From positions 1 through 64,000 of the forward strand of contig CALFSX010000213.1 in assembly GCA_937916515.1 (NCBI GenBank): DNA of 64,000 nucleotides, in the 5' to 3' direction. The notes below the pieces were generated by a model. It searched no databases. It saw only the letters and a program-made list of their open reading frames with translations, and was not told the DNA's origin. Each line of letters starts with the position of its first letter. Within the stretch, counting starts at the first letter, position 1. Shown one piece after another: positions 13,510-26,117 of this stretch. The stretch is from an uncultured Planctomycetaceae bacterium (lineage in GTDB: Bacteria; Planctomycetota; Planctomycetia; Planctomycetales; Planctomycetaceae). The translations under genes and the position numbers were made by a program.

Positions 13510-14265
13510 ATGAAAAAAGCGTTCTTATTGCTGTCTGCAGCAGCTCTGTTGGCTCCTTCCACCCTTTTGGGTGCTGAATGGGGTACGGTTTCTGGAAAGA
13601 TCGTTCTGAAGGGCGATGTACCGTCTCCTGTGCTGTTGCACGCTAAAGGTGCAGACATCAAAGACAAAGAGGTCTGTGCGGCCTTGGATACATACAAAGA
13701 TGATCTGGTGATTAATGCAGACACCAAAGGCATCGCCAACGTGTTTGTGTATCTGGCGAAGGCTCCGAAAAGCATTCACCCAGAAGCAGGCAAGCCCGCT
13801 CCGAAGGTAATTTTCGACCAGAAAAACTGCTTGTTCATTCCTCACACATTGGTTGTGCAGGCCGGGCAAACCGTGGAAGTGTTGAATTCAGACACGATTG
13901 CTCACAACACTCACACTTATCCACTGCGAAATCAGGCCGTCAACGTTCTGGTTGCTCCTGACACCAAGGCGGGCAGTGGAACTGATGTTGCGACAACGAC
14001 TCGCGAAACACTGCCTCATCAGGTGAAGTGCGACTATCATCCATGGATGATGGCCTATTGGTTGGTTGTGGATCACCCATATGCTGCAGCAACCGACGCT
14101 GAAGGCAATTTCAAGATCGAAAACCTGCCGGTTGGAACTCATGAATGCCGTATTTGGCACGAACGAGCTGGCTACCTGGATCGCAAGTACGTCATTGAAG
14201 TGAAAGCTGGCGACAATACGCTGAAGCCAGTTGAAGTGAATTTGAGCCAGCTGGAAGAAAAGTAA
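13510..14265 (+). CDS. Secreted cupredoxin-like protein
   Basis: 251 residues with a Sec signal peptide (residues 1-22, LLGA cleavage context). A good Shine-Dalgarno (taggaaag) precedes the ATG. The middle part holds a cupredoxin-like core: VEVLNSDTIAHNTHTY gives the first His, and VKCDYHPWMMAYWLVV supplies Cys, His and Met, the order of type 1 copper ligands. The C-terminal part, DAEGNFKIENLPVGTHECRIWH, resembles a carboxypeptidase-regulatory-like beta-sandwich. It is probably a periplasmic electron-transfer or copper protein; the redox partner is not visible nearby. A strong terminator follows at 14319-14352. Confidence 0.8.
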   Translation: MKKAFLLLSAAALLAPSTLLGAEWGTVSGKIVLKGDVPSPVLLHAKGADIKDKEVCAALDTYKDDLVINADTKGIANVFVYLAKAPKSIHPEAGKPAPKVIFDQKNCLFIPHTLVVQAGQTVEVLNSDTIAHNTHTYPLRNQAVNVLVAPDTKAGSGTDVATTTRETLPHQVKCDYHPWMMAYWLVVDHPYAAATDAEGNFKIENLPVGTHECRIWHERAGYLDRKYVIEVKAGDNTLKPVEVNLSQLEEK

Positions 14266-14535: not shown

Positions 14536-15233
14536 CAGCGGTGCGGCTTGCAGAAGCTTTGAGTGGCCCGGGTTTCGCAGTTTGCGACTGAAATCCTGAG
14601 GTGCCCCCTGCTCCGCGTTTTTCCAGCTGGGTTCTTCCAATTGCGGCCTGTTCGCTGTTCGGCAAACTTAGCTTTATTGGAACAGGTTCGCTGCAGTCCG
14701 TGATTTCACGCGACTGGAACTTGCCCGCGAAATCGCATCAATTTGCCCTCAGCTGGCAACGGTTGCTGGTTCATCGCCTGCCAGATTCCACATATTCGGC
14801 GCATTCGTTACAGGCCGAACGTGCCATTGACAGTTTGCGAAAGCTAAGTGCCGGTTTGTCCCCAATTTGGTCGAGAAATCAAATGTGTGGCTCCGCGCGC
14901 ATGACGTGTGGGAACTGTACGTTCGTGTAGTATTGTCGGCCCTGTTGGTTTGGAGCGGCGAATTCGTCGTATACCAAGCCATCTTTCCATCGAAAGACGG
15001 AAGCGGGGTGTTTTGCAGACCCCAACGCAGTGTTACAGGTGGGAGAATGCGGTCTCGGAGTGAGTTTTCCCCTATTCGTATGGGTCTCACGGAAAACGAT
15101 CTGGAATCGTGAGTTCGCTTTAGTTGTGATAGCCGTCGAGAGATTGTGGTGAGCACAGTCTTTCGGGTGCTTTTTGCCCAATTATCCTGACGCCCTTTTA
15201 TTTATTTGCAGCAGGAACGACGAGGAATTATCA
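14536..15233. other. 698-bp region upstream of the giant surface-protein gene
   Basis: No gene is convincing; a 109-codon frame at 14601-14930 has no family features. The stretch tgcggcctgttcg-tgttcggc at 14641-14663 also occurs, with one base less, at 44232-44254 upstream of the coiled-coil operon. A long leader or distant promoter for the giant gene is possible. Confidence 0.4.
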
Positions 15234-18200
15234 ATGACGGTTTTGAAATCTCTGCTGTCCTCATTTCGCAATTCTCGCAACAACGCACGCAGAACGCGTC
15301 GAGTTGATCAGGTAAGTCCGGGAGCTGCTGAAGCTTTGGAGCAGCGATTGCTGCTGACGAATCCGGATCCCTTCGACAGCAATCCCGGAGCTGCGAAGAC
15401 CATCTACCTCGACTTCGACGGGCATACTGAGACGAATTCGGTATGGACTAACAATGGCAACCTCACTGTCACGACTCCTCAGTTTAGCGCCGACGCTGAT
15501 TTAAGTACTTTTTCCGATCTGGATCGCATCACGATCGAAGAAGTGTTTCGACGAGTGTCTGAAGATTTTGCTCCCTTTGGCAACGTCAACGTGACGACCG
15601 TGGAGCCTGCCGGAGCGAATCCTGGTGAGGTCATCTTTGTTTCGATTGGTGGTTCAGGTCGCCGCACAAACGCAAGTTCGTGGTCTTCCAGAAGCTATAA
15701 CGACGCCAAGTTGAATGGGTTCACCAATGCGGCCTCGTCGAACACCGTTTTTGTGTTTGCTCGTGACTATACCAGCCACCTTCAGACTCAGCCGCCGGGA
15801 ACAACGTCTGGTGAACGAGCTGGTCAATTGGGTCGCGATATCGCCAACGGCGTGAGTGAAGCCGTCGGTATTGCGATGGGGCTTTCTGAACGAGCGACAA
15901 CTGGCACTGATGAAGTTTCGCCGTTGGTTGGCACCGGTACGTTTGCGCGTGGTTGGCGCGATGTGTGGTCGAATCAGCTTGGCCAGGATGATCTTGCAAT
16001 TCTGACGAATGGCACAAACGGATTTACGTTCGTTGCTGACGATCATGGTGACGCTTTCGCAACCGCAACATCGATTGCGACAACTCCAAATACAGAGACC
16101 GTGCGAGGCCTGATCGGTCAGAATGGCGACGTGGACGTGTTCCACTTCAATACGGCAGCAACCAGTGCGACTTTTAGTGTTCGTGGGTTGGAACTTCCGT
16201 CGCAGCTTTCTGAATCAACAGGTCAGGCATTCAGCAGCAACGGATCCAGCAACTCTGGCTCGAACCTTGATCCCACCTTAACGCTGTTCGATGCTAACGG
16301 AACAATCGTTAGCTTTGACAATCCGGCCTTCACTTCAACAAGTGATGCAGCGTCCAATGCAAGTCTGACCGCTTCAATTACTCAGAGTCTGCCTGCTGGC
16401 GATTACTATCTGCAGATTTCGACGGGTGGTGAGTATGGAAATCTTGGACAGTACGAATTGACGATTACCGGAGTTGATCAGCCGACCAGCACCAACGTGA
16501 TCGCCTTGCAGAGTAAGCCCAATGCACCAGTAAATTTCTACCTGGACTTCAATGGTGCGCGAGTAACAGAAGACGAAATCATCGTTGCTCGGGCCGACGG
16601 CATTGATCAGCCATTTTATGTTCCGGCTTACGATACCGATGGAGATCGCCGGTCAATTTCTGTTGCCGAAGAAGCTGAGATCATCGAGATCTATCGACGA
16701 ATTGCCGAAGACTTCGCTCCGTTTGATGTCAATGTTACCACTGTCGACCCATTCCTGTTCGGAGCCAGAGCAGGTCTGCAAACCGTTATCGGTGGCGATG
16801 GCAGCTGGCACGGAGTAACGAACGCCACTGGTTTCGCGGCATTGGATACCTTTGGTGTTGGTGCCGGCGACAACATGGCGATCGCGTTCAGCGATTTGTT
16901 TTCGTCAAATAAAGAGACGGCTCTGGAAACAAGTGCAGCCATCGCCAATGCATTGGGGATCGAAACTCATTACACGAATGGTGACCCGACACAGCCACGA
17001 TTACCGGGTTATCCTGCCTATGGTGCGATTGGTGGCGATTCAGTAAACAGTCTGCGAGACATCTTCCAGAATGTTGCCGGTTCGTCTTCAGTAGTACCAA
17101 TTGATCCACTGGCCATCATTACCAACAGTACCAACCGTATCCGGTATCGTTCAGACGATCACGGCAACGATGCAGGCACGGCGTCGTTGGTTACTCTGTC
17201 AACGAACACAGAGACCTTAACTGGAATTATTGAATCGAACACCGACGTTGACGTGTTTTCTTTTGAAACTCGCGCGTCCAATGCTGCGATTATTTCCATT
17301 ACGGGTCTTGATCTGACGGTGACAAGCACAGGGGCGACAGTTCCAGGCGTTACCAATCCGGGAGCAAACCTGGACCCGGTGATTCAGCTGTTGGATGAAA
17401 ATTTCAACGTCATATTGCAGGACGGTGATTTCTTTGCGTCTGTAAACCAGCTTCGCAATGACAATACCGTATCCAGCCTGAAGGCAGTAATTGCAACTCC
17501 GCTCGCGACTGGCCGGTACTTCCTTCGCATTAGTGGGCAGCGAGATCCAAGTCTGTTGGAATACGGAAATATTGGTACCTACACTGTTACCCTGGAAGGC
17601 ATCGACGGCACGGATGTAAGTCTATCGTTTTTGCCTCCGGATCCGGCTAACCCAAGTGTCATCGCAATATCTGAAAATGCCGGCACAGTGGTCGGTATTG
17701 GGCGGGTTGATCGTCCTCGGGGCCAACCAATTACCGCTCCGTTGGTGGTGCAGCTGCAAAGTACAGACACGACGGAACTGGTTGTTCCGCCTTCAGTGAC
17801 AATTCTTCCGGGGCAGACGTTTGCGTTGTTTAACGTTACCGCCGTGGACGATGATCTTTTGGATGGCGAACAGCGAGTAGTTGTTAATGCTTTGGTGAAT
17901 GGCGTGATCAGCAGTTCAGCGTCTCTGCGAGTGCTTGACTATGAAACCATCACCACATCACTGAACCCCAGCCCCGTTCGTGAAGATGCTGGACCGGGGG
18001 GAGCGACACTAACGGTTGCTCGCAGTAATACAGATATTGGTGCTGCTAACCACTGGGTTGCCTTTGGGTCGTCTTTGCGTGAATACGATATTGCTGGTAA
18101 TCTGGTCCGCACAGTGCCAATTGAATGGCCGACCGGTAGTCGTCCAGCAGTCGAGGTGGCTCATGATGTTCAGGTTCTGCAGGACGGGAACGTCGCCGTC

Positions 18201-21200
18201 TTTAACGGAACCGGGACAGCGTTTCTGTCTGTTTTCAACGTTTCAAACAATACCTGGCAGCATTTTGCGGAGCCCGGATTGTCTGCAAATACCACCGCAG
18301 ATCCAACAATCGGTGGGATTACGTCGATTGGTGACTACGTTTTCCTGAGCGATTTCGAGACGTTTAATGGCGATGCTCGCGGCATCGTGCGTATTAATAC
18401 GTTCACCGGAGCTGTTGACCGATTCGCTGATACCTCGGTCGGCGCTCGGCTTTTTGCAGCCAATGGTTCTTCGATTGTTGAATTAGAACCAATCACAGGA
18501 GAAGTCCTTAAGAGTCTGGCGATCCCTGTAAATTCCGGTGGTTTCAGCCGAACGGCAGCAGCGGTTGCCTTTGACGGAGCTGCCGTTTGGGTGTTGGTGG
18601 ATGATACTTCGTTTGGAACGACAGCTGAACTGCTGAAGATTAGCCCGGATACTGGAGCCTTGCTGGAAACGCATAGTGTTCCTGGAACGTTTGATTTTGG
18701 ACGTTCGGGGATGACTGTGATGAACGGGCTGATTTACATCACAGATGGCTTTAATACGCTTTCTGTCTTTGGTGGTACGAGTCTTCTGACCTACAACCCA
18801 ACCGTCAGGCAGGTTACGGGCAATCTGATTCCAATAGCTGCGCAAAATAACCTTAATATTGGCGTTAGTATTGGGTCACTGCCGTCTGCCAATAAACTTT
18901 TAGTGACAGGGTATTCATCTAGCGCATTCGGATTTCTGACTCAACGAATTTACGAAATTGATCCGACTACGGGATTTCAAACGGCATCGTTTCTGGTTCC
19001 GAATTCATCATATTTTGACTTCGATGGAATCACTTCAGTCAGCGATGTGACGATCGGTGGTGTGACGTATAACGATCTGATTTATGTTAACAGCCGAGTT
19101 AATGGGCTTCAGGTCTTTCAGAGAAATGGAACCCGGCTTGACATCAATCCGGCTACGTCTCCAATCGATCCTGTACCGAATGGAGGTTTTCCAACTGGTG
19201 TTGATATCGGTGGGGGCGACGTACCGGGAGTTACTTCGCAGGATCAAAGTTTTCGCGATGTGACCATCGGATTGCACGATGGCTTGCTTTACGGTCTGCT
19301 TGATACAGGTACGGGCATCGCTGTTCACGATCCGGACACATTGGCTCAGGTCAATACGATTACTCTGGATGCCGTGGTTAACGCCATTTCAATCGATCGT
19401 GATGGCAATATTCTGGGTGGCGGGCCAAACGGGATCATGACTCTGTTTGATCCAAACGGAGTGACAATTTCTTCACTTGCCACGGGGCTTGCTTCAATCG
19501 CTGACATTGATACCAACGTCAGTGAGGCGTTGATTATCAGCGACGTCAACGGTCAGGTCGTTACAGGAGAATTGGATGCCATTCGAAACAGCGACCTGTC
19601 TTTGTTGACGTTCCTTGAAACGACAGGATCGACTTCGTTTGTCAGCTTTGGTCGACACTCAACGCTGCCAACCGGCGATCTGTTTATTACGTTGACGTCC
19701 AGCGATATTTCCGAATTGGTTGTGCCGGTCGAGGTGCGGATCCCTGTTGGTCAGCCTTCCGTAACAATTCCAATTGACGTGATTGACGACAATCTGCGAG
19801 ACGGAACTCAGTCCGTTGACCTTGCGGGACAGACTGATAACTACGTGACGATCGTAAACACTGTTGCCGTGTTGGATGCGGAAACGGTGGGAGTAGACAT
19901 TATTCCGGCCACTGTTTATGAAACCGATGGCACGATCACCAATGGGATTCGAGTCTTTCGAACAGACGTGGATGGTCCGTTTGAAGTGCCGGACTTCAGC
20001 ACAGCTTCCACGACGCAGTCGATTGGGATTGATGATAACGATGTCACGTTGTCTCAACTGCAGATTCGTGATCAGCAGTCGATTATCACCGATGTGAACG
20101 TAACTCTAAGTCTGACTCACTCATTCATTCCAGACCTTGATATCTATCTTGTTAGTCCGTCCGGAACCCGTGTTGCTCTGTTCACGGATCTCGGTACCAA
20201 CGAAACCACGATGACATCGACTGTGTTTGATGATGAAGCGGCTGTTCGAATTCGTGACGGTTTGGCCCCTTACACGGGACGGTTCATCTCAAAAGAGTTG
20301 TTGTCCGCGTTTGATGGCGAAGATCCATCCGGAACCTGGACTCTGGAAATTAACGACGACAACGTGCGAGATTCAGGTGTGTTGTTAGGCTGGACTCTGG
20401 ATATTGAAACGCTGGGGCTGTCTGCCACTAACATTGTGCTGGTTGTTTCTGACCCGTCGGAAGCGGACGTCAGAACCGTTAATGTCACAATTCCTCCAGC
20501 GACCGCAGAGATCTTTATCGACCTGTTAGTGCTGGATGACACAATCGTTGATGGGACACAGGTTGCTACAATTGGCGTGGCTTCTACCAATCTGACTGGC
20601 TTCGACAATGGGTCTGATACGGTTGATGTGCTCGATGTGGAAAATCTGCAGATCACGCTGGATAAGACCACAATCTCTGAAGGCGACGGTCTTGGGGCGA
20701 TCACCGGAACGATTCGGCGTTCAGACACTGCTTTAACCGATGCCCTGGTTGTTACACTGACCAGCAACGATAGTTCCGAAATCGCCGTGCCGGTTACGGT
20801 TACAATTCCAGTTGGCGAAACATCAGCGACGTTCTTAATCGATGCTGTTGATGATCCGGACTTCGATGGAGATCAACAGGTTACGTTTACTGCAGTGGCT
20901 CCTGGATATGTTTCTCTGGACAGTCCTGTGATTACTGTCACAGATCAGGAACCGCGAATTGCTTTGACGACGTTGTCAACAACTGTTGCTGAAGACGCTG
21001 GCACAATCGTGATTACAATTTCACGGCTGGACGCAACAGATCTCAGTGTTGCACAAACCGTGACGTTGCAAAGCAACGACCTGACGGAATTGACGGTGCC
21101 AGCAACTTTTGTGATTCCTGTAGGAGCGATCAGCGTCAATTTTCTGGCAACGGTACAGAACGATGACCTGCTGGATGGTCCTCAGGTTGTAACGATTACT

Positions 21201-23555
21201 GCTGCCGATGTGAATACGGCCAATCCGGGTCTGAATTCGGGTACGATTCAAATCACTGTTGAAGATGCTGAGGCCGTTCAGATTACCGTGCCACCAGGCG
21301 GCGACACATTCCTTGAAAACGCAGGTGCTGCTGTTACGGGAACTGTTCGCATCACGGCACCGAATCCGGCCGGCGACACAATTGTGACGTTGTTCAACAG
21401 CGACCTGACAGAGGTTTCTATCCCGACTCAGGTTGTAATTCCGGCAGGCGAAACGTCCGTCGATTTCGTTATTCGAGCGGTGGACGATACGGCAATCGAT
21501 CGTGACCAATTGGTGACTTTGACCGGTTCCGCAGCTGGCTATCGAGACGGTAGTTTGGTGGTAACCGTAAGAGATTACGAACCACCGACCACAATTGGTC
21601 CCGTCGCTATTACAGAAGATTCCACACCTGCACTTCAGTGGGCTCCTGTCGAAGGTGCTACGCGTTACGACCTTTGGGTGAACGACCTTTCTCGTAACAT
21701 TGTGCAGCTGTATCGTCTGGAAAACCTGCCAGCAAAAGCTCCGTTCTTCTACGAAGACTTCGAATCCGGTAGCTTCGCGACAAATGGCTGGGCCAATTCC
21801 GGGGCAACAATTGACGACCTTGCATTGGGAGAGGAAAATGGTTCCCAGACGGCTCACCTGAATGGAAGCCCGGATGGTGGTGACCGTATTGAAACGTCAA
21901 CAATGGATCTTTCCGGCAAGGTCGGCGTTCAACTGAAGTATGCGTTTGAACAAACAGGGTCGGGTGAATCACCGGATGCGAGCGAAGACCTTGTAATTTC
22001 CTATCGAAATGCGGCTGGCGAATGGGTTGTTCTTGAGCGACAGCCGGGCTCTGGTCCTGACGCTACTGTGTTCAGGACTTCTGTTATTCAGCTGCCGAAA
22101 GCTGCCTTGCATGCGAATTTTGCTCTGCGATTTGAAAGCATCGGCAAGGCCATTCAGGATGGGATTGAAGGCGAATACGACGATTGGTTCATCGACAGTG
22201 TTGAGCTGAGCGAATACGAAGAGTTTACGCCACCTCAGGAACTTGGTGTCGGTGCTTATCGCTATTGGGTGCGAGCCTACGATAACCTGGAACAACCGGG
22301 GTTCTGGTCGCCTGGGCACAACTTCCAGGTTCGAACAAGACCCGTCATTTCAAGTCCAGTCAACAACTCTGCGTCGGCTGTCGCTGGTTCGCCTGTGATT
22401 TCATGGTCGACCGTCGTGGACACGGACTACGATCTTTGGGTTAACGATTTGACCCGAGGTACAAGTCAGGTGATTCGCAAGACAGGTCTGCAAACGACCA
22501 GCTTCTCCACGGCAACCGCCAACCTCGCGGGTGGCACCTATAAAGCCTGGGTCCGAGCGGGAGCTCCCGATGGCCTCCAGGGTTATTGGAGCACGCCGGT
22601 TACGTTTACGATTCTTAGTGCACCTGAAGGACTTCGACCATCAGGTTCTACGTTCGATCGTACACCGGAACTTGGCTGGGACGAAGTTGTCGGGGCAACC
22701 TACTACTATGTCTGGTTGACACGTCGTGATCCTGGCCAGACGCCAGTGGTTGTTCTGCAGGATCAATTTGTTTCCGGCAACCTGCGAATTCCAGAACAGG
22801 ACCTGCAGGACGGTCGATACGTCTTTTGGGTTCAGGCAATCGGTGAAGATGGTTCTCGATCGGCCTGGTCTGCTGGAAGCGAGTTCTATGTTGCCGGACG
22901 TCCGGAAGTTATCAGTCCGGCCAACAACGGAACGGCGACTTCCAGTCCAACAATCAGCTGGATTGGCGTTGATGGCAGTAGTCACTACGAGATCTGGGTG
23001 AATCGAACAGACGTTGCCGTTTCGAAGGTGATCTACGATGCCAACGTGACATCAACTTCATACACTTCAACGACTGCCCTTGCGGCCGGAACGTACCGAG
23101 TATGGATTCGAGCGATCTCGGAAATGGGCGAACGTTCGCCATGGAGCAAGCCGGTCGACTTTACCGTCGCCTCCGCTGGCAACAGATCGATTGAAGTAGA
23201 ATCCGGCACTGGGCCAATGCTTGCTGCTGTCGATCTGCGGACTGCATTGCACAGCACCTATATTGTGATGCCATTGGAAGAAGATCCAGAAACACCTGTG
23301 GCCGTTGCTGGCGATCAGTCAGCAGTCGTGCAGGTCGATCGGATCACTGACCAAGTGGGATCTGCGGTAGACGGCAACGCCGTTGAACAGGTTGACAATG
23401 TAATGGCAGAATGGGATGCGTCGAATTGGTGGGATGGAAGCTCTGTCGTTGAAGAAGAGAAAACAGAGCTTTCGCAAGCCGCCGCAATGCTGGGTCTGGG
23501 GCTTGCCGCAGGTCGTAGCGTAATTCGTACGGACAGAAAGAAACGTCAGCGATAA
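15234..23555 (+). CDS. Giant multidomain surface/secreted protein with two degenerate metallopeptidase-like domains
   Basis: 2773 residues from the ATG at 15234, preceded by gacgaggaat; an in-frame ATG at 15174 is less likely. Residues ~34-41 read LEQRLLLT, an LEPR-XLL-type N-terminal motif of planctomycete exported proteins. In order: a metallopeptidase-like domain (YLDFDGHT, EDFAPFGNVNVTT; ~45-275), a PPC domain (~285-395), a second peptidase-like domain (YLDFNGAR, EDFAPFDVNVTT; ~400-630), a second PPC, a Calx-beta-like module, a beta-propeller-like region (~935-1475), further Calx-beta modules with a proprotein-convertase P-like domain (~1584-1728), then jelly-roll and FN3-like modules (repeated YDLWVND) from ~2129. 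The tail LGLGLAAGRSVIRTDRKKRQR may anchor or sort it. Neither peptidase-like domain keeps HExxH. It is probably a surface adhesin or scaffold. Confidence 0.85.
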   Translation: MTVLKSLLSSFRNSRNNARRTRRVDQVSPGAAEALEQRLLLTNPDPFDSNPGAAKTIYLDFDGHTETNSVWTNNGNLTVTTPQFSADADLSTFSDLDRITIEEVFRRVSEDFAPFGNVNVTTVEPAGANPGEVIFVSIGGSGRRTNASSWSSRSYNDAKLNGFTNAASSNTVFVFARDYTSHLQTQPPGTTSGERAGQLGRDIANGVSEAVGIAMGLSERATTGTDEVSPLVGTGTFARGWRDVWSNQLGQDDLAILTNGTNGFTFVADDHGDAFATATSIATTPNTETVRGLIGQNGDVDVFHFNTAATSATFSVRGLELPSQLSESTGQAFSSNGSSNSGSNLDPTLTLFDANGTIVSFDNPAFTSTSDAASNASLTASITQSLPAGDYYLQISTGGEYGNLGQYELTITGVDQPTSTNVIALQSKPNAPVNFYLDFNGARVTEDEIIVARADGIDQPFYVPAYDTDGDRRSISVAEEAEIIEIYRRIAEDFAPFDVNVTTVDPFLFGARAGLQTVIGGDGSWHGVTNATGFAALDTFGVGAGDNMAIAFSDLFSSNKETALETSAAIANALGIETHYTNGDPTQPRLPGYPAYGAIGGDSVNSLRDIFQNVAGSSSVVPIDPLAIITNSTNRIRYRSDDHGNDAGTASLVTLSTNTETLTGIIESNTDVDVFSFETRASNAAIISITGLDLTVTSTGATVPGVTNPGANLDPVIQLLDENFNVILQDGDFFASVNQLRNDNTVSSLKAVIATPLATGRYFLRISGQRDPSLLEYGNIGTYTVTLEGIDGTDVSLSFLPPDPANPSVIAISENAGTVVGIGRVDRPRGQPITAPLVVQLQSTDTTELVVPPSVTILPGQTFALFNVTAVDDDLLDGEQRVVVNALVNGVISSSASLRVLDYETITTSLNPSPVREDAGPGGATLTVARSNTDIGAANHWVAFGSSLREYDIAGNLVRTVPIEWPTGSRPAVEVAHDVQVLQDGNVAVFNGTGTAFLSVFNVSNNTWQHFAEPGLSANTTADPTIGGITSIGDYVFLSDFETFNGDARGIVRINTFTGAVDRFADTSVGARLFAANGSSIVELEPITGEVLKSLAIPVNSGGFSRTAAAVAFDGAAVWVLVDDTSFGTTAELLKISPDTGALLETHSVPGTFDFGRSGMTVMNGLIYITDGFNTLSVFGGTSLLTYNPTVRQVTGNLIPIAAQNNLNIGVSIGSLPSANKLLVTGYSSSAFGFLTQRIYEIDPTTGFQTASFLVPNSSYFDFDGITSVSDVTIGGVTYNDLIYVNSRVNGLQVFQRNGTRLDINPATSPIDPVPNGGFPTGVDIGGGDVPGVTSQDQSFRDVTIGLHDGLLYGLLDTGTGIAVHDPDTLAQVNTITLDAVVNAISIDRDGNILGGGPNGIMTLFDPNGVTISSLATGLASIADIDTNVSEALIISDVNGQVVTGELDAIRNSDLSLLTFLETTGSTSFVSFGRHSTLPTGDLFITLTSSDISELVVPVEVRIPVGQPSVTIPIDVIDDNLRDGTQSVDLAGQTDNYVTIVNTVAVLDAETVGVDIIPATVYETDGTITNGIRVFRTDVDGPFEVPDFSTASTTQSIGIDDNDVTLSQLQIRDQQSIITDVNVTLSLTHSFIPDLDIYLVSPSGTRVALFTDLGTNETTMTSTVFDDEAAVRIRDGLAPYTGRFISKELLSAFDGEDPSGTWTLEINDDNVRDSGVLLGWTLDIETLGLSATNIVLVVSDPSEADVRTVNVTIPPATAEIFIDLLVLDDTIVDGTQVATIGVASTNLTGFDNGSDTVDVLDVENLQITLDKTTISEGDGLGAITGTIRRSDTALTDALVVTLTSNDSSEIAVPVTVTIPVGETSATFLIDAVDDPDFDGDQQVTFTAVAPGYVSLDSPVITVTDQEPRIALTTLSTTVAEDAGTIVITISRLDATDLSVAQTVTLQSNDLTELTVPATFVIPVGAISVNFLATVQNDDLLDGPQVVTITAADVNTANPGLNSGTIQITVEDAEAVQITVPPGGDTFLENAGAAVTGTVRITAPNPAGDTIVTLFNSDLTEVSIPTQVVIPAGETSVDFVIRAVDDTAIDRDQLVTLTGSAAGYRDGSLVVTVRDYEPPTTIGPVAITEDSTPALQWAPVEGATRYDLWVNDLSRNIVQLYRLENLPAKAPFFYEDFESGSFATNGWANSGATIDDLALGEENGSQTAHLNGSPDGGDRIETSTMDLSGKVGVQLKYAFEQTGSGESPDASEDLVISYRNAAGEWVVLERQPGSGPDATVFRTSVIQLPKAALHANFALRFESIGKAIQDGIEGEYDDWFIDSVELSEYEEFTPPQELGVGAYRYWVRAYDNLEQPGFWSPGHNFQVRTRPVISSPVNNSASAVAGSPVISWSTVVDTDYDLWVNDLTRGTSQVIRKTGLQTTSFSTATANLAGGTYKAWVRAGAPDGLQGYWSTPVTFTILSAPEGLRPSGSTFDRTPELGWDEVVGATYYYVWLTRRDPGQTPVVVLQDQFVSGNLRIPEQDLQDGRYVFWVQAIGEDGSRSAWSAGSEFYVAGRPEVISPANNGTATSSPTISWIGVDGSSHYEIWVNRTDVAVSKVIYDANVTSTSYTSTTALAAGTYRVWIRAISEMGERSPWSKPVDFTVASAGNRSIEVESGTGPMLAAVDLRTALHSTYIVMPLEEDPETPVAVAGDQSAVVQVDRITDQVGSAVDGNAVEQVDNVMAEWDASNWWDGSSVVEEEKTELSQAAAMLGLGLAAGRSVIRTDRKKRQR

Positions 23556-23973: not shown

Positions 23974-25377
23974 ATGGCGAATCTCGAACCACAGTCGTCG
24001 CCGGTAAGACGACTGATTATTTCCGAAATACTGATCGTTGCTGTCTTGGCACTCAGTGTTGTTGTCTTCAAGGGATTGTATGCCCAGAAGCCCGAGGTTC
24101 AGGAAAAGAACATTGAAGCAGTACGCCTGAACGTTGACGTGTTCGTTTCCGAATCGCTGGATGTGCAGGAACTGTTGACCGGATTCGGGACGGCTCGAGC
24201 AGATCGCGACGTGGTTATTGCGGCTCAGGTTTCCGGCGAGATCGTTGACATAAATCCGCAATTGAAAGTTGGGCAGCAGGTTCTTAGTGGTCAGTTGGTA
24301 ACAGCAGCCGACGGTCCGTCAGTGCACCGCAACGCGGACTTGCTGTTGAAGATTGATTCTCGCGACTTACAGCAGAAAGCAGATCAGGCCGGAAATTCAA
24401 TTGAAGAATCGCTTGCGGACACAAGCCGCTTAAAGGTTCAACAGAAGAATCTTGAGCGTCAGTTGCAGAAGTCGAAGTCGATTTTGGCGACACTGGAAGA
24501 AGAATATGAACGGATTCGAGACGCCGAATCGAAACGAGTTGCGACCAGGTCTGATCTGAATCGTGCTTTGCTTGACGTGCAACGCTATGAAGAATCTGTC
24601 ATCCAGTTGGAAAATCAAGTGGCATCGATTCCACTGCAGATTCAGGCAGCTGAGCAGCGTTTGAATTCCAGTCGAGCCGAAAAATCGCGAGCCGAAAATG
24701 ATCTGGGACGCACAGAAGTTTACCCACCGTTTGATGGAGTCTTAAGCGAGGTTTTTGTGGAGAAAGGACGCTATGTCAGGGCTGGCGAACAGCTTGCCAG
24801 ATTGACGGACGTCAGTAAGGTAGAGATTCCTGTTTCATTGGGCTTTGATGATTTTCTGCAGCTGCAAAACATTCTAAGTGAAGGCACGAAGCCCAAAGTT
24901 TCCATTTCAGAAAACGAAACCGCAGCGCCTCGCTGGACCGGGTTCATGGTTCGTGCGGCTCCTGAAGCAGATTCGCTTTCAAGAACTGTTCAGGTCTATG
25001 TGGAAGTAGAAAACGAAGTTGGTCAGACTCCTCTTTTGCCCGGTGCTTTTGTGTATTCGCGGATCGATGGTTCAGTCTTTAATGACGTAACATTGGTCCC
25101 CCGCGAAGCAATTACTGACGGCTGCGTTTATGTGGTTGATGAGCAGAACATCGTGCGAAAACGAAATGTCACCACGGGGCGTCGGTTTCAGTCGTTGATC
25201 ATCGTTGAAAGCGGGCTCAGCTCCGGTGAGCGAGTTGTGCTGACAAACCTGGACATCGTCAAAGACGGCGAAGAAGTTGTCGTGCAAACAACCGTGGGCC
25301 CGAAAGACGAAATTGCCGCCTTGCGAAGTCCATCACTTCAAGTTGTGTCTGATTCAATTTCTGAAGTCGACGAATGA
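23974..25377 (+). CDS. HlyD/RND-type periplasmic adaptor (membrane fusion protein)
   Basis: 467 residues. N-terminal TM helix (~15-33, IISEILIVAVLALSVVVF), then a lipoyl/barrel-sandwich half (VVIAAQVSGEIVDINPQLKVGQQV), a long coiled-coil hairpin (~130-235), the second lipoyl half (YPPFDGVLSEVFVEKGRYV), then beta-barrel and membrane-proximal domains. Adaptors of this type bridge an inner-membrane pump and an outer-membrane channel. No RND, ABC or TolC-like gene is adjacent; instead its stop overlaps the start of rsmE by four bases (ATGA). The pump must be encoded elsewhere, or the protein has another envelope role. The ribosome binding site is weak. Confidence 0.85.
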   Translation: MANLEPQSSPVRRLIISEILIVAVLALSVVVFKGLYAQKPEVQEKNIEAVRLNVDVFVSESLDVQELLTGFGTARADRDVVIAAQVSGEIVDINPQLKVGQQVLSGQLVTAADGPSVHRNADLLLKIDSRDLQQKADQAGNSIEESLADTSRLKVQQKNLERQLQKSKSILATLEEEYERIRDAESKRVATRSDLNRALLDVQRYEESVIQLENQVASIPLQIQAAEQRLNSSRAEKSRAENDLGRTEVYPPFDGVLSEVFVEKGRYVRAGEQLARLTDVSKVEIPVSLGFDDFLQLQNILSEGTKPKVSISENETAAPRWTGFMVRAAPEADSLSRTVQVYVEVENEVGQTPLLPGAFVYSRIDGSVFNDVTLVPREAITDGCVYVVDEQNIVRKRNVTTGRRFQSLIIVESGLSSGERVVLTNLDIVKDGEEVVVQTTVGPKDEIAALRSPSLQVVSDSISEVDE

Positions 25378-26117
25378 CAGAACTTTTCTATTGTGCTGAT
25401 CTGCGCGCTGCCACGGTGACGCTGTCTGATGCGGAGGCACATCATGCGATTCATGTGCTCCGGCTGAAGTTGCACGACGCCATCGGCCTGTTTGATGGAG
25501 CAGGAACGCGAGCGAGCGCGGTGATCACAGCAATTGACCGCAGAACAGTGACGGCCTCTGTATCTTCCTCGACATTCACTCAGAAGCCAACAGTCGGACG
25601 GCTGACGGTTGCTGCGTCTCCAGCGAAGGGAGACCGATTAAAGTGGATGATTGAAAAGCTGACTGAGTTGAGCGTCGATACGTACATTCCGCTGTTAACG
25701 GAAAGAACGGTCGTCGATCCTCGAAAGTCTAAGCTTGATAAGTTGTCGGCCAACGTTATCAGTGCGGCCAAACAGTCAGGCCAGTTGTGGCTGATGGATG
25801 TTGCAGCACCAATGAAACTTGCCGAAATGTTACAGGTGACTGCATCATCGACGAGATATTACATTGCTCACCCGTATGCCGCCGACGCTGAACCAACGGA
25901 TTGCCCAGGTGTCTTTCCGCCGGATGCTTCACAGAACAATCACGTTTTGCTGATTGGGCCTGAAGGCGGATTCACCGATGCTGAAGTGCAACTAGCTATC
26001 AATGCGGGAGCCACGTCGATTTCTCTACCGGGCACAATTTTGCGGATCGAAACAGCGGCCATCGCATTTTCTGCGATTTTGCAGCAGTCGATTTCACGGC
26101 GTGCGGCAGGCGTTTAA
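25374..26117 (+). CDS. rsmE: 16S rRNA (uracil-1498-N3)-methyltransferase
   Basis: 247 residues, the usual length for RsmE. It methylates U1498 of 16S rRNA (SPOUT fold with a trefoil knot). Typical features: N-terminal PUA-like part with HHAIHVLRLK; KGDRLKWMIEKLTELSVDTYIPL; the SAM-binding knot with LLIGPEGGFTDAEV and the C-terminal SLPGTILRIETAAIAF. The start ATG overlaps the adaptor stop (ATGA), which indicates translational coupling. The pairing with an efflux adaptor looks incidental to function but fixes the start. Confidence 0.95.
   Translation: MTELFYCADLRAATVTLSDAEAHHAIHVLRLKLHDAIGLFDGAGTRASAVITAIDRRTVTASVSSSTFTQKPTVGRLTVAASPAKGDRLKWMIEKLTELSVDTYIPLLTERTVVDPRKSKLDKLSANVISAAKQSGQLWLMDVAAPMKLAEMLQVTASSTRYYIAHPYAADAEPTDCPGVFPPDASQNNHVLLIGPEGGFTDAEVQLAINAGATSISLPGTILRIETAAIAFSAILQQSISRRAAGV

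Follow-up and report, generated by a model that had tools for sequence, protein, structure and literature searches.

Two metzincin-like domains without zinc ligands head a predicted planctomycete surface giant, in a slot that holds a protease in relatives

The giant gene and its neighbours

The window, by which we mean the whole stretch of 64,000 nucleotides that was analysed, carries a complete open reading frame of 2773 residues with an ATG start (the frame that begins with a TTG at 15174 is likewise open upstream of the ATG). The first-pass annotation had described a giant with two metallopeptidase-like domains, and both the frame and the pair of domains were borne out by the reading of the ORF and by the fold of the domains. 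The assigned features, with the basis of each assignment, are listed below.

15234..23555, forward strand: giant ORF, 2773 residues, complete, ATG start (ORF reading, start context)
15234..15359, forward strand: N-terminal region with a basic stretch and the LEPR-XLL-like motif ALEQRLLLT (kept in five orthologues)
15387..16058, forward strand: predicted pseudo-metzincin domain 1, residues 52-275 (model, metzincin fold, HMM, tree)
15858..15890, forward strand: degenerate active-site stretch of domain 1, residues 209-219, with E, A, I, E at the catalytic positions (alignment)
16059..16508, forward strand: PPC-like domain 1, residues 276-425 (by eye; no Pfam match at E ≤ 1)
16530..17303, forward strand: predicted pseudo-metzincin domain 2, residues 433-690 (model, metzincin fold, tree)
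16935..16967, forward strand: degenerate active-site stretch of domain 2, residues 568-578, with A, A, N, T at the catalytic positions (alignment)
17304..17663, forward strand: PPC-like domain 2, residues 691-810, end of the swappable head (start of homology to other giants)
17664..23552, forward strand: constant body, residues 811-2773, common to giants with other heads (homology)
18039..19673, forward strand: beta-propeller-like region, residues ~936-1480, boundaries approximate (profile matches to solved propellers)
20088..20402, forward strand: P domain PF01483, residues 1619-1723 (Pfam, 56 bits for a cut-off of 21)
22224..23183, forward strand: FN3-like repeats, residues ~2331-2650 (overlapping repeat matches, Pfam below cut-off)
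23322..23552, forward strand: C-terminal tail with the motif VMAEWDASNWW, a hydrophobic stretch and a basic end (sequence)

The P-like module of the first reading is thus a genuine P domain. As it is the only module to pass its Pfam cut-off, the other module names are given by eye or from sub-threshold matches. The FN3-like repeats did match PF00041, but with 16.4 bits for a cut-off of 25. The PPC-like and Calx-beta-like modules could be seen by eye, but no Pfam model matched either at E ≤ 1. Similarly, ALEQRLLLT reads by eye as the LEPR-XLL-type motif that had been announced, but the NCBIfam model NF012209 scored 7.1 bits for a cut-off of 17. No match to PF07595 (Planc_extracel) was found in the window protein at E ≤ 1, nor any to a Pfam family of disintegrin or cysteine-rich domains, which sets the protein apart from the ADAMs (M12B). 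In profile searches, the propeller-like region matched the solved structures of Lp49, YncE, NHL and PQQ proteins. The C-terminal motif, in which V or I followed by M precedes a W and a WW at fixed spacing, recurs with variations in many giants whatever their head (the window protein, L037, L039, L167, L169-L173, L219, L221 and L223-L225). It is followed by a hydrophobic stretch and a basic end, reminiscent of a sorting or anchoring tail, in the window protein, L037, L039, L167 and L171.

Downstream of the giant, at 23974-26117, lies a gene for an HlyD-type periplasmic adaptor, which overlaps a gene for an RsmE-type RNA methyltransferase. The adaptor gene also follows the giant in two related genomes, G003 and G004, whereas a tblastn search of the available loci with S8- or M36-headed giants (described below) detected no homologue. 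Upstream, 13510-14265 encodes a cupredoxin-like protein (a weak match to PF00127, below cut-off) with a carboxypeptidase-regulatory-like end. The same gene precedes the giant in G003 and G005 and the giant fragments in G002 and G007, but is found on the other side in G004.

Metzincin fold and loss of the zinc site

AlphaFold models of the two domains reached a pLDDT of 88.3 and a pTM of 0.90 for domain 1, and 87.4 and 0.86 for domain 2. With VIA-align, the best match of domain 1 was 2aig (Z = 12.4, 155 residues, 3.3 Å) and that of domain 2 was 6x5x (Z = 12.4, 153 residues, 3.3 Å); two structures of ADAM22 were also matched, with Z of 10.4-10.8. The Foldseek scores were modest: the best E-values were 8e-5 and 3.7e-4, and the TM-score normalised by query length ranged from 0.24 to 0.43 among the matches listed. 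The matches listed by the two programs comprised adamalysins, ADAMs, ADAMTS, TACE, MMPs, fragilysin and archaemetzincins, as well as 3lmc, titled 'zinc-dependent peptidase', which we take to be a metzincin. Metzincins likewise predominated among the matches when solved structures were searched with a sequence profile, though the E-values were weak (from 0.0019). The agreement in fold is partly guaranteed because the models were built on alignments of 75 and 76 rows that are rich in active relatives. As far as the models go, both domains adopt the overall metzincin fold, and an unrelated fold, which would have refuted the first reading, was thus not what the comparison showed.

Relatives were searched for in 58 related genomes and, with a profile, in 170 genomes of the family. 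Five tandem orthologues were found, four in the genus of the window (G003, G004, G005 and G006) and one in another genus (G012). They share 46-55% of their residues with the window protein across the aligned columns, and two of them (G005, G006) are partial, the 3' ends of the genes being cut by contig ends. Two more genomes of the same genus, G002 and G007, gave N-terminal fragments only; these were left out of the ligand counts because their contigs end within domain 1. Both assemblies (L175, L176) end at the identical point, RVAEDFR; a tandem repeat that interrupts assembly would have this effect. A scan of named-genome contigs recovered four of the five orthologues again (L071, L072, L073 and L082) among the best 80 of 192 candidates; these 80 also included active single-domain relatives from planctomycetes, cyanobacteria, actinobacteria, verrucomicrobia and others. 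Such an active relative is encoded in the window's own genus by G001 (L015/L177, L132).

The active relatives provide the register in which the lost site can be read. Both copies in the window retain the YLDF and EDFAPF.VNVTT marks, and the helices expected to carry the zinc-binding motif read NGVSEAVGIAMGLSER in domain 1 and AAIANALGIETHY in domain 2, all as first noted; HExxH is absent from both domains and from the whole ORF. The positions of the three His, the catalytic Glu and the Met-turn Met (in the order H, E, H, H, M) are occupied by E209, A210, I213, E219 and V232 in domain 1 and by A568, A569, N572, T578 and G600 in domain 2. We aligned 117 distinct domains, which represent 126 before identical ones were merged (hits covering fewer than 190 model positions and duplicate loci had been excluded beforehand). 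HExxH is present in 102 of them and absent from 15. Of these 15, 12 come from the six giants, and the other three (L069, L089 and L137) belong to a single-domain type. The orthologues were where the claim could have failed, and HExxH was retained in none of the 12 domains of the six genomes, the window included. With HExxHxxGxxH and the Glu taken as the mark of an active peptidase, neither the ligands nor the Glu are kept in any of the 12: all four residues are replaced, by several different residues, and the Met-turn Met survives in two only, neither of them in the window.

The rest of the domain was far better preserved. Forty-six columns are conserved in at least 90% of the 102 HExxH-bearing relatives. 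None of the five catalytic columns was kept in at least 10 of the 12 dead domains, compared with 25 of the 41 others, and Ser, Leu, Phe, Arg, Glu, Asp, Pro and Gly positions were kept in all 12. Among the columns lost outside the catalytic set are a GG that precedes the helix, two Trp, and one Tyr and one Gly located between helix and Met-turn. The Fisher test of catalytic against other columns (p = 0.015) is partly circular, because the 'active' rows were chosen by HExxH. Two contrasts escape this circularity: the third His, found in 102 of 102 active domains and in none of the 12 dead ones, and the Met-turn Met, found in every active row that has a residue at that position and in 2 of the 12. 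Chance resemblance was rejected, since the 25 kept framework columns fix the register with the active relatives.

As to what the dead domains have gained, an Asp (Asp243/609) is fixed in all 12, and is found in 5% of active domains and in 36% of the active sisters (see below); the adjoining Arg (R242 and equivalent) is already present in all active sisters. With newly fixed residues so few, and partly present in the active sisters already, the sequences give scant direct evidence of a new binding site. At the former active-site positions, residues differ freely from one of the 12 domains to the next, and any binding need therefore not use the old cleft. Mean pairwise identity across the six genomes was 43.2% and 40.1% for the two dead domains, at the low end of the protein, and 55-58% for the Calx-beta, P and FN3 blocks, computed without G005 and G006. 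A codon model by region gave tree lengths of 6-50 substitutions per codon, which amounts to saturation, and omega was not used. The six open frames, the 40-43% identity of the domains and the framework held while the catalytic residues were lost support the earlier view that the pair is kept by selection. With a loss common to the orthologues, a retained fold and an open frame in six genomes, the 12 domains qualify as pseudoenzymes.

A tree computed without the active-site columns on 81 of the 117 domains (the 15 dead ones, the first 48 active ones and every third of the other 54) placed all dead domains in one clade (98 bootstrap / 96 SH-aLRT). Within it, domain 1 of the giants (98/91) and the single-domain type (100/99) formed subgroups, as did domain 2, weakly (89/52). 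The dead clade had as its sister 14 active enzymes of the stand-alone kind, of which 13 belong to the genera g48 and g72, and the two groups were joined at 100/99. An alternative tree with domain 1 beside the active sisters was 19.2 log units worse and was not rejected (p-AU = 0.178). A single ancient loss of the zinc site before the tandem duplication is thus favoured by the tree, short of proof, and this test of one alternative leaves room for independent losses. In L069/L091/L178 and L137 (ORFs of 1160 residues) and in L089 (cut), a single dead metzincin of this clade is followed by Ig/FN3-like repeats.

A constant body with exchangeable heads

A profile search of the body, extended to 397 genomes of the class, showed that about 1960 residues from residue ~811 onwards are common to 17 giants in the two other genera, g48 and g72. 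In the eight compared with the window protein, body identity was 36-40% over 1366-1413 residues, and homology began at residues 775-827 (811-812 in five of the eight), close to the end of the second PPC-like stretch. Fourteen of the 17 carry an S8 subtilase head and two an M36 fungalysin head; the last (G154) is cut off, with no readable head. Pfam, run on eight of these heads, identified M36 with an FTP propeptide in two, S8 with a fervidolysin-type prodomain in three and S8 with a P domain in three, and the S8 heads outside these eight were assigned by BLAST match to them. GTSxA was found by script in 13 of the S8 heads, and G151 was assigned from Pfam and by eye. We call these heads intact-looking on the strength of one signature each, GTSxA (S8) or HEFGH (M36). 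These unrelated heads (S8, S8 with P, M36) meet the body at the same junction in L167-L174, L188 and L219-L226.

The dead heads formed one group on the body tree (100/100), and the S8, S8 with P and M36 heads did not group by type. The head of G151 is nearest to that of G066 (48.5%), and also close to that of G065, while its body is nearest to that of the M36-headed G142 (58%); similarly, G064 has its nearest head in G153 (59%) and its nearest body in the M36-headed G156 (51%). Since head and body relationships disagree, the heads have evidently been swapped. The dead heads themselves gave no match to the other head types at E ≤ 1e-5. RsmE lies downstream of three of the six dead-head giants (window, G003 and G004; in G005 and G006 the contig ends too early, and G012 shows none in the stretch available) and of nine of the 17 others (the remaining eight show none in the stretch available, some of them at a contig end). 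Because RsmE occurs downstream in both sets, these giants, or at least those that share it, look like one locus with an exchanged front. From these comparisons we define a family of head-swap giants, with a constant body and an exchangeable N-terminus of protease type. In the lineage of the window, the paired pseudo-protease fills the slot that holds a protease in relatives.

Proposed role of the paired domains and related systems

The tip of the window giant probably binds proteins rather than cutting them, because its catalytic residues are lost and related bodies carry intact-looking proteases at the same place. On this basis, we propose with slightly more confidence than doubt that it is a surface giant with a non-cleaving tip that binds proteins or peptides, derived by duplication from a metzincin whose zinc site had been lost a single time. 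An active metzincin would have lost its zinc site in a single event, and duplication of the dead domain would have produced the tandem, each copy followed by a PPC-like module. This pair would have been retained as a binding head, held away from the cell by the propeller, Calx-beta-like and FN3-like body, where it would capture or adhere to proteinaceous material or to a partner protein; in the relatives, a protease tethered to this same chassis would cut such material instead. In this scheme the surface location is predicted from the protein and the binding by the head is our inference. The first-pass annotation had likewise suggested that the pair may have a binding or scaffold role.

Several other explanations were weighed against this one. 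The domains could bind no ligand and serve the stalk as a structural spacer or folding platform, in agreement with the small number of newly fixed residues and with an identity (43.2 and 40.1%) that is low beside the 55-58% of the Calx-beta, P and FN3 blocks (without G005 and G006). We nevertheless regard this as unlikely: the homologous slot holds a recognisable protease head, that is a functional tip, in 16 of the 17 relatives, and there would be little reason to preserve the metzincin framework twice in a spacer. Control of an active partner protease, or presentation of substrates to it, is a common role of pseudoproteases, as for CspA/CspC or iRhoms in the accounts of PMC6636752 and PMC6451368. 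The window genome, however, contains only two matches to the metzincin family at E ≤ 0.01, both of them the dead domains themselves, and in the other five genomes, apart from the giants, the search yielded no more than three partial matches of marginal strength (E of 0.001-0.01). As the window genome thus offers no active paralogue at this threshold, such a regulator is disfavoured and we consider it very doubtful, even allowing for a possible partner from another protease family.

A rebuilt site, with an alternative metal or with catalysis by other residues, might be read into the His found one residue past the third ligand position in 5 of the 12 domains; but no His is invariant or near-invariant across the alignment of the 12, and each former ligand column holds several different residues, which makes this highly improbable. 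Recent decay or a sequencing error in the window genome, for its part, has almost no probability, as it is refuted by the orthologues, where the identical state occurs in five further genomes and two genera, in frames that are open as far as the contigs reach.

The binding tip that we favour has its closest parallel known to us among the inactive ADAMs (ADAM22/23/11, M12), which also have a metzincin fold with replaced zinc-site residues and are extracellular, as is predicted here. ADAM22 is described in PMC5906670 as a catalytically inactive metzincin with receptor function; a beta-propeller is bound by its metalloprotease-like domain (PMC5906670, PMC11266112) at a surface other than the pseudo-active site (PMC11266112). 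Such binding would agree with how freely the old site varies in the 12 dead domains. In contrast to the ADAMs, the window protein is bacterial, carries a tandem pair, shows no disintegrin domain in Pfam and extends over 2773 residues with a propeller-like region of its own. Sequence identity is only 6-17% in the structural alignments listed, and the Met-turn Met is mostly lost in the window family whereas inactive ADAMs have it, according to PMC11266112. The likeness extends to the fold and the proposed way of working only. A bolder version of the proposal holds that the exchangeable slot is refilled by recombination with unrelated protease classes and that one lineage has turned it into a receptor for a specific protein ligand, possibly a beta-propeller of its own or of a neighbouring cell. 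We think this quite unlikely; if true, the slot-turned-receptor would be a bacterial parallel to ADAM22-LGI1.

The direct homologues of the window domains are bacterial stand-alone metzincins with the pattern YLDFDGH...RVAEDFAPFNVNVTT...SHEVGHxLGLxHD, from planctomycetes, cyanobacteria, actinobacteria and others, and in several matches the homology extends into the PPC-like module. They carry HExxH (102 of the 117 distinct domains), unlike the window domains; of five active proteins tested, a single one (L014, with Reprolysin_3) scored above the cut-off of a Pfam model for a catalytic domain. The g48 and g72 giants resemble the window giant in the body and differ from it in the head, which is S8 (GTSxA) or M36 (HEFGH). 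CspA and CspC of Clostridioides difficile are, as reported in PMC6636752, bacterial pseudoproteases likewise kept for a non-catalytic role, CspA being made fused to the active CspB. They differ in their serine protease fold, their role in spore germination and their active partner. Fibrillar adhesins, as presented in PMC8286594, are likewise long surface proteins built of adhesive and stalk domains; no adhesive domain derived from a protease was encountered for them in that paper, whose main text contains neither 'peptidase' nor 'inactive'. In a 2024 review of pseudo-metallopeptidases (PMC11266112), the metzincin rows encountered list animal proteins (unc-71, ADAMs), and the sole prokaryotic case encountered there belongs to M16. 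Bacterial pseudoproteases of other folds, CspC and pseudo-orthocaspases, already appear in the literature. In the open-access literature searched, we found no report of the window protein, of bacterial pseudo-metzincins or of an exchangeable protease slot. A conserved pseudoprotease is therefore of a known kind; a bacterial tandem pseudo-metzincin in an exchangeable protease slot is apparently new.

The window thus offers a bacterial lineage of pseudo-metzincins, in tandem and conserved across two genera, with active relatives available for comparison. The body shared by S8, M36 and dead heads constitutes a natural experiment, in which one stalk bears cutting and non-cutting tips, and the function of the tip can therefore be tested by comparing otherwise similar giants. 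It also offers a specific interpretation of one of the numerous 'giant genes' of planctomycetes described in PMC5177795.
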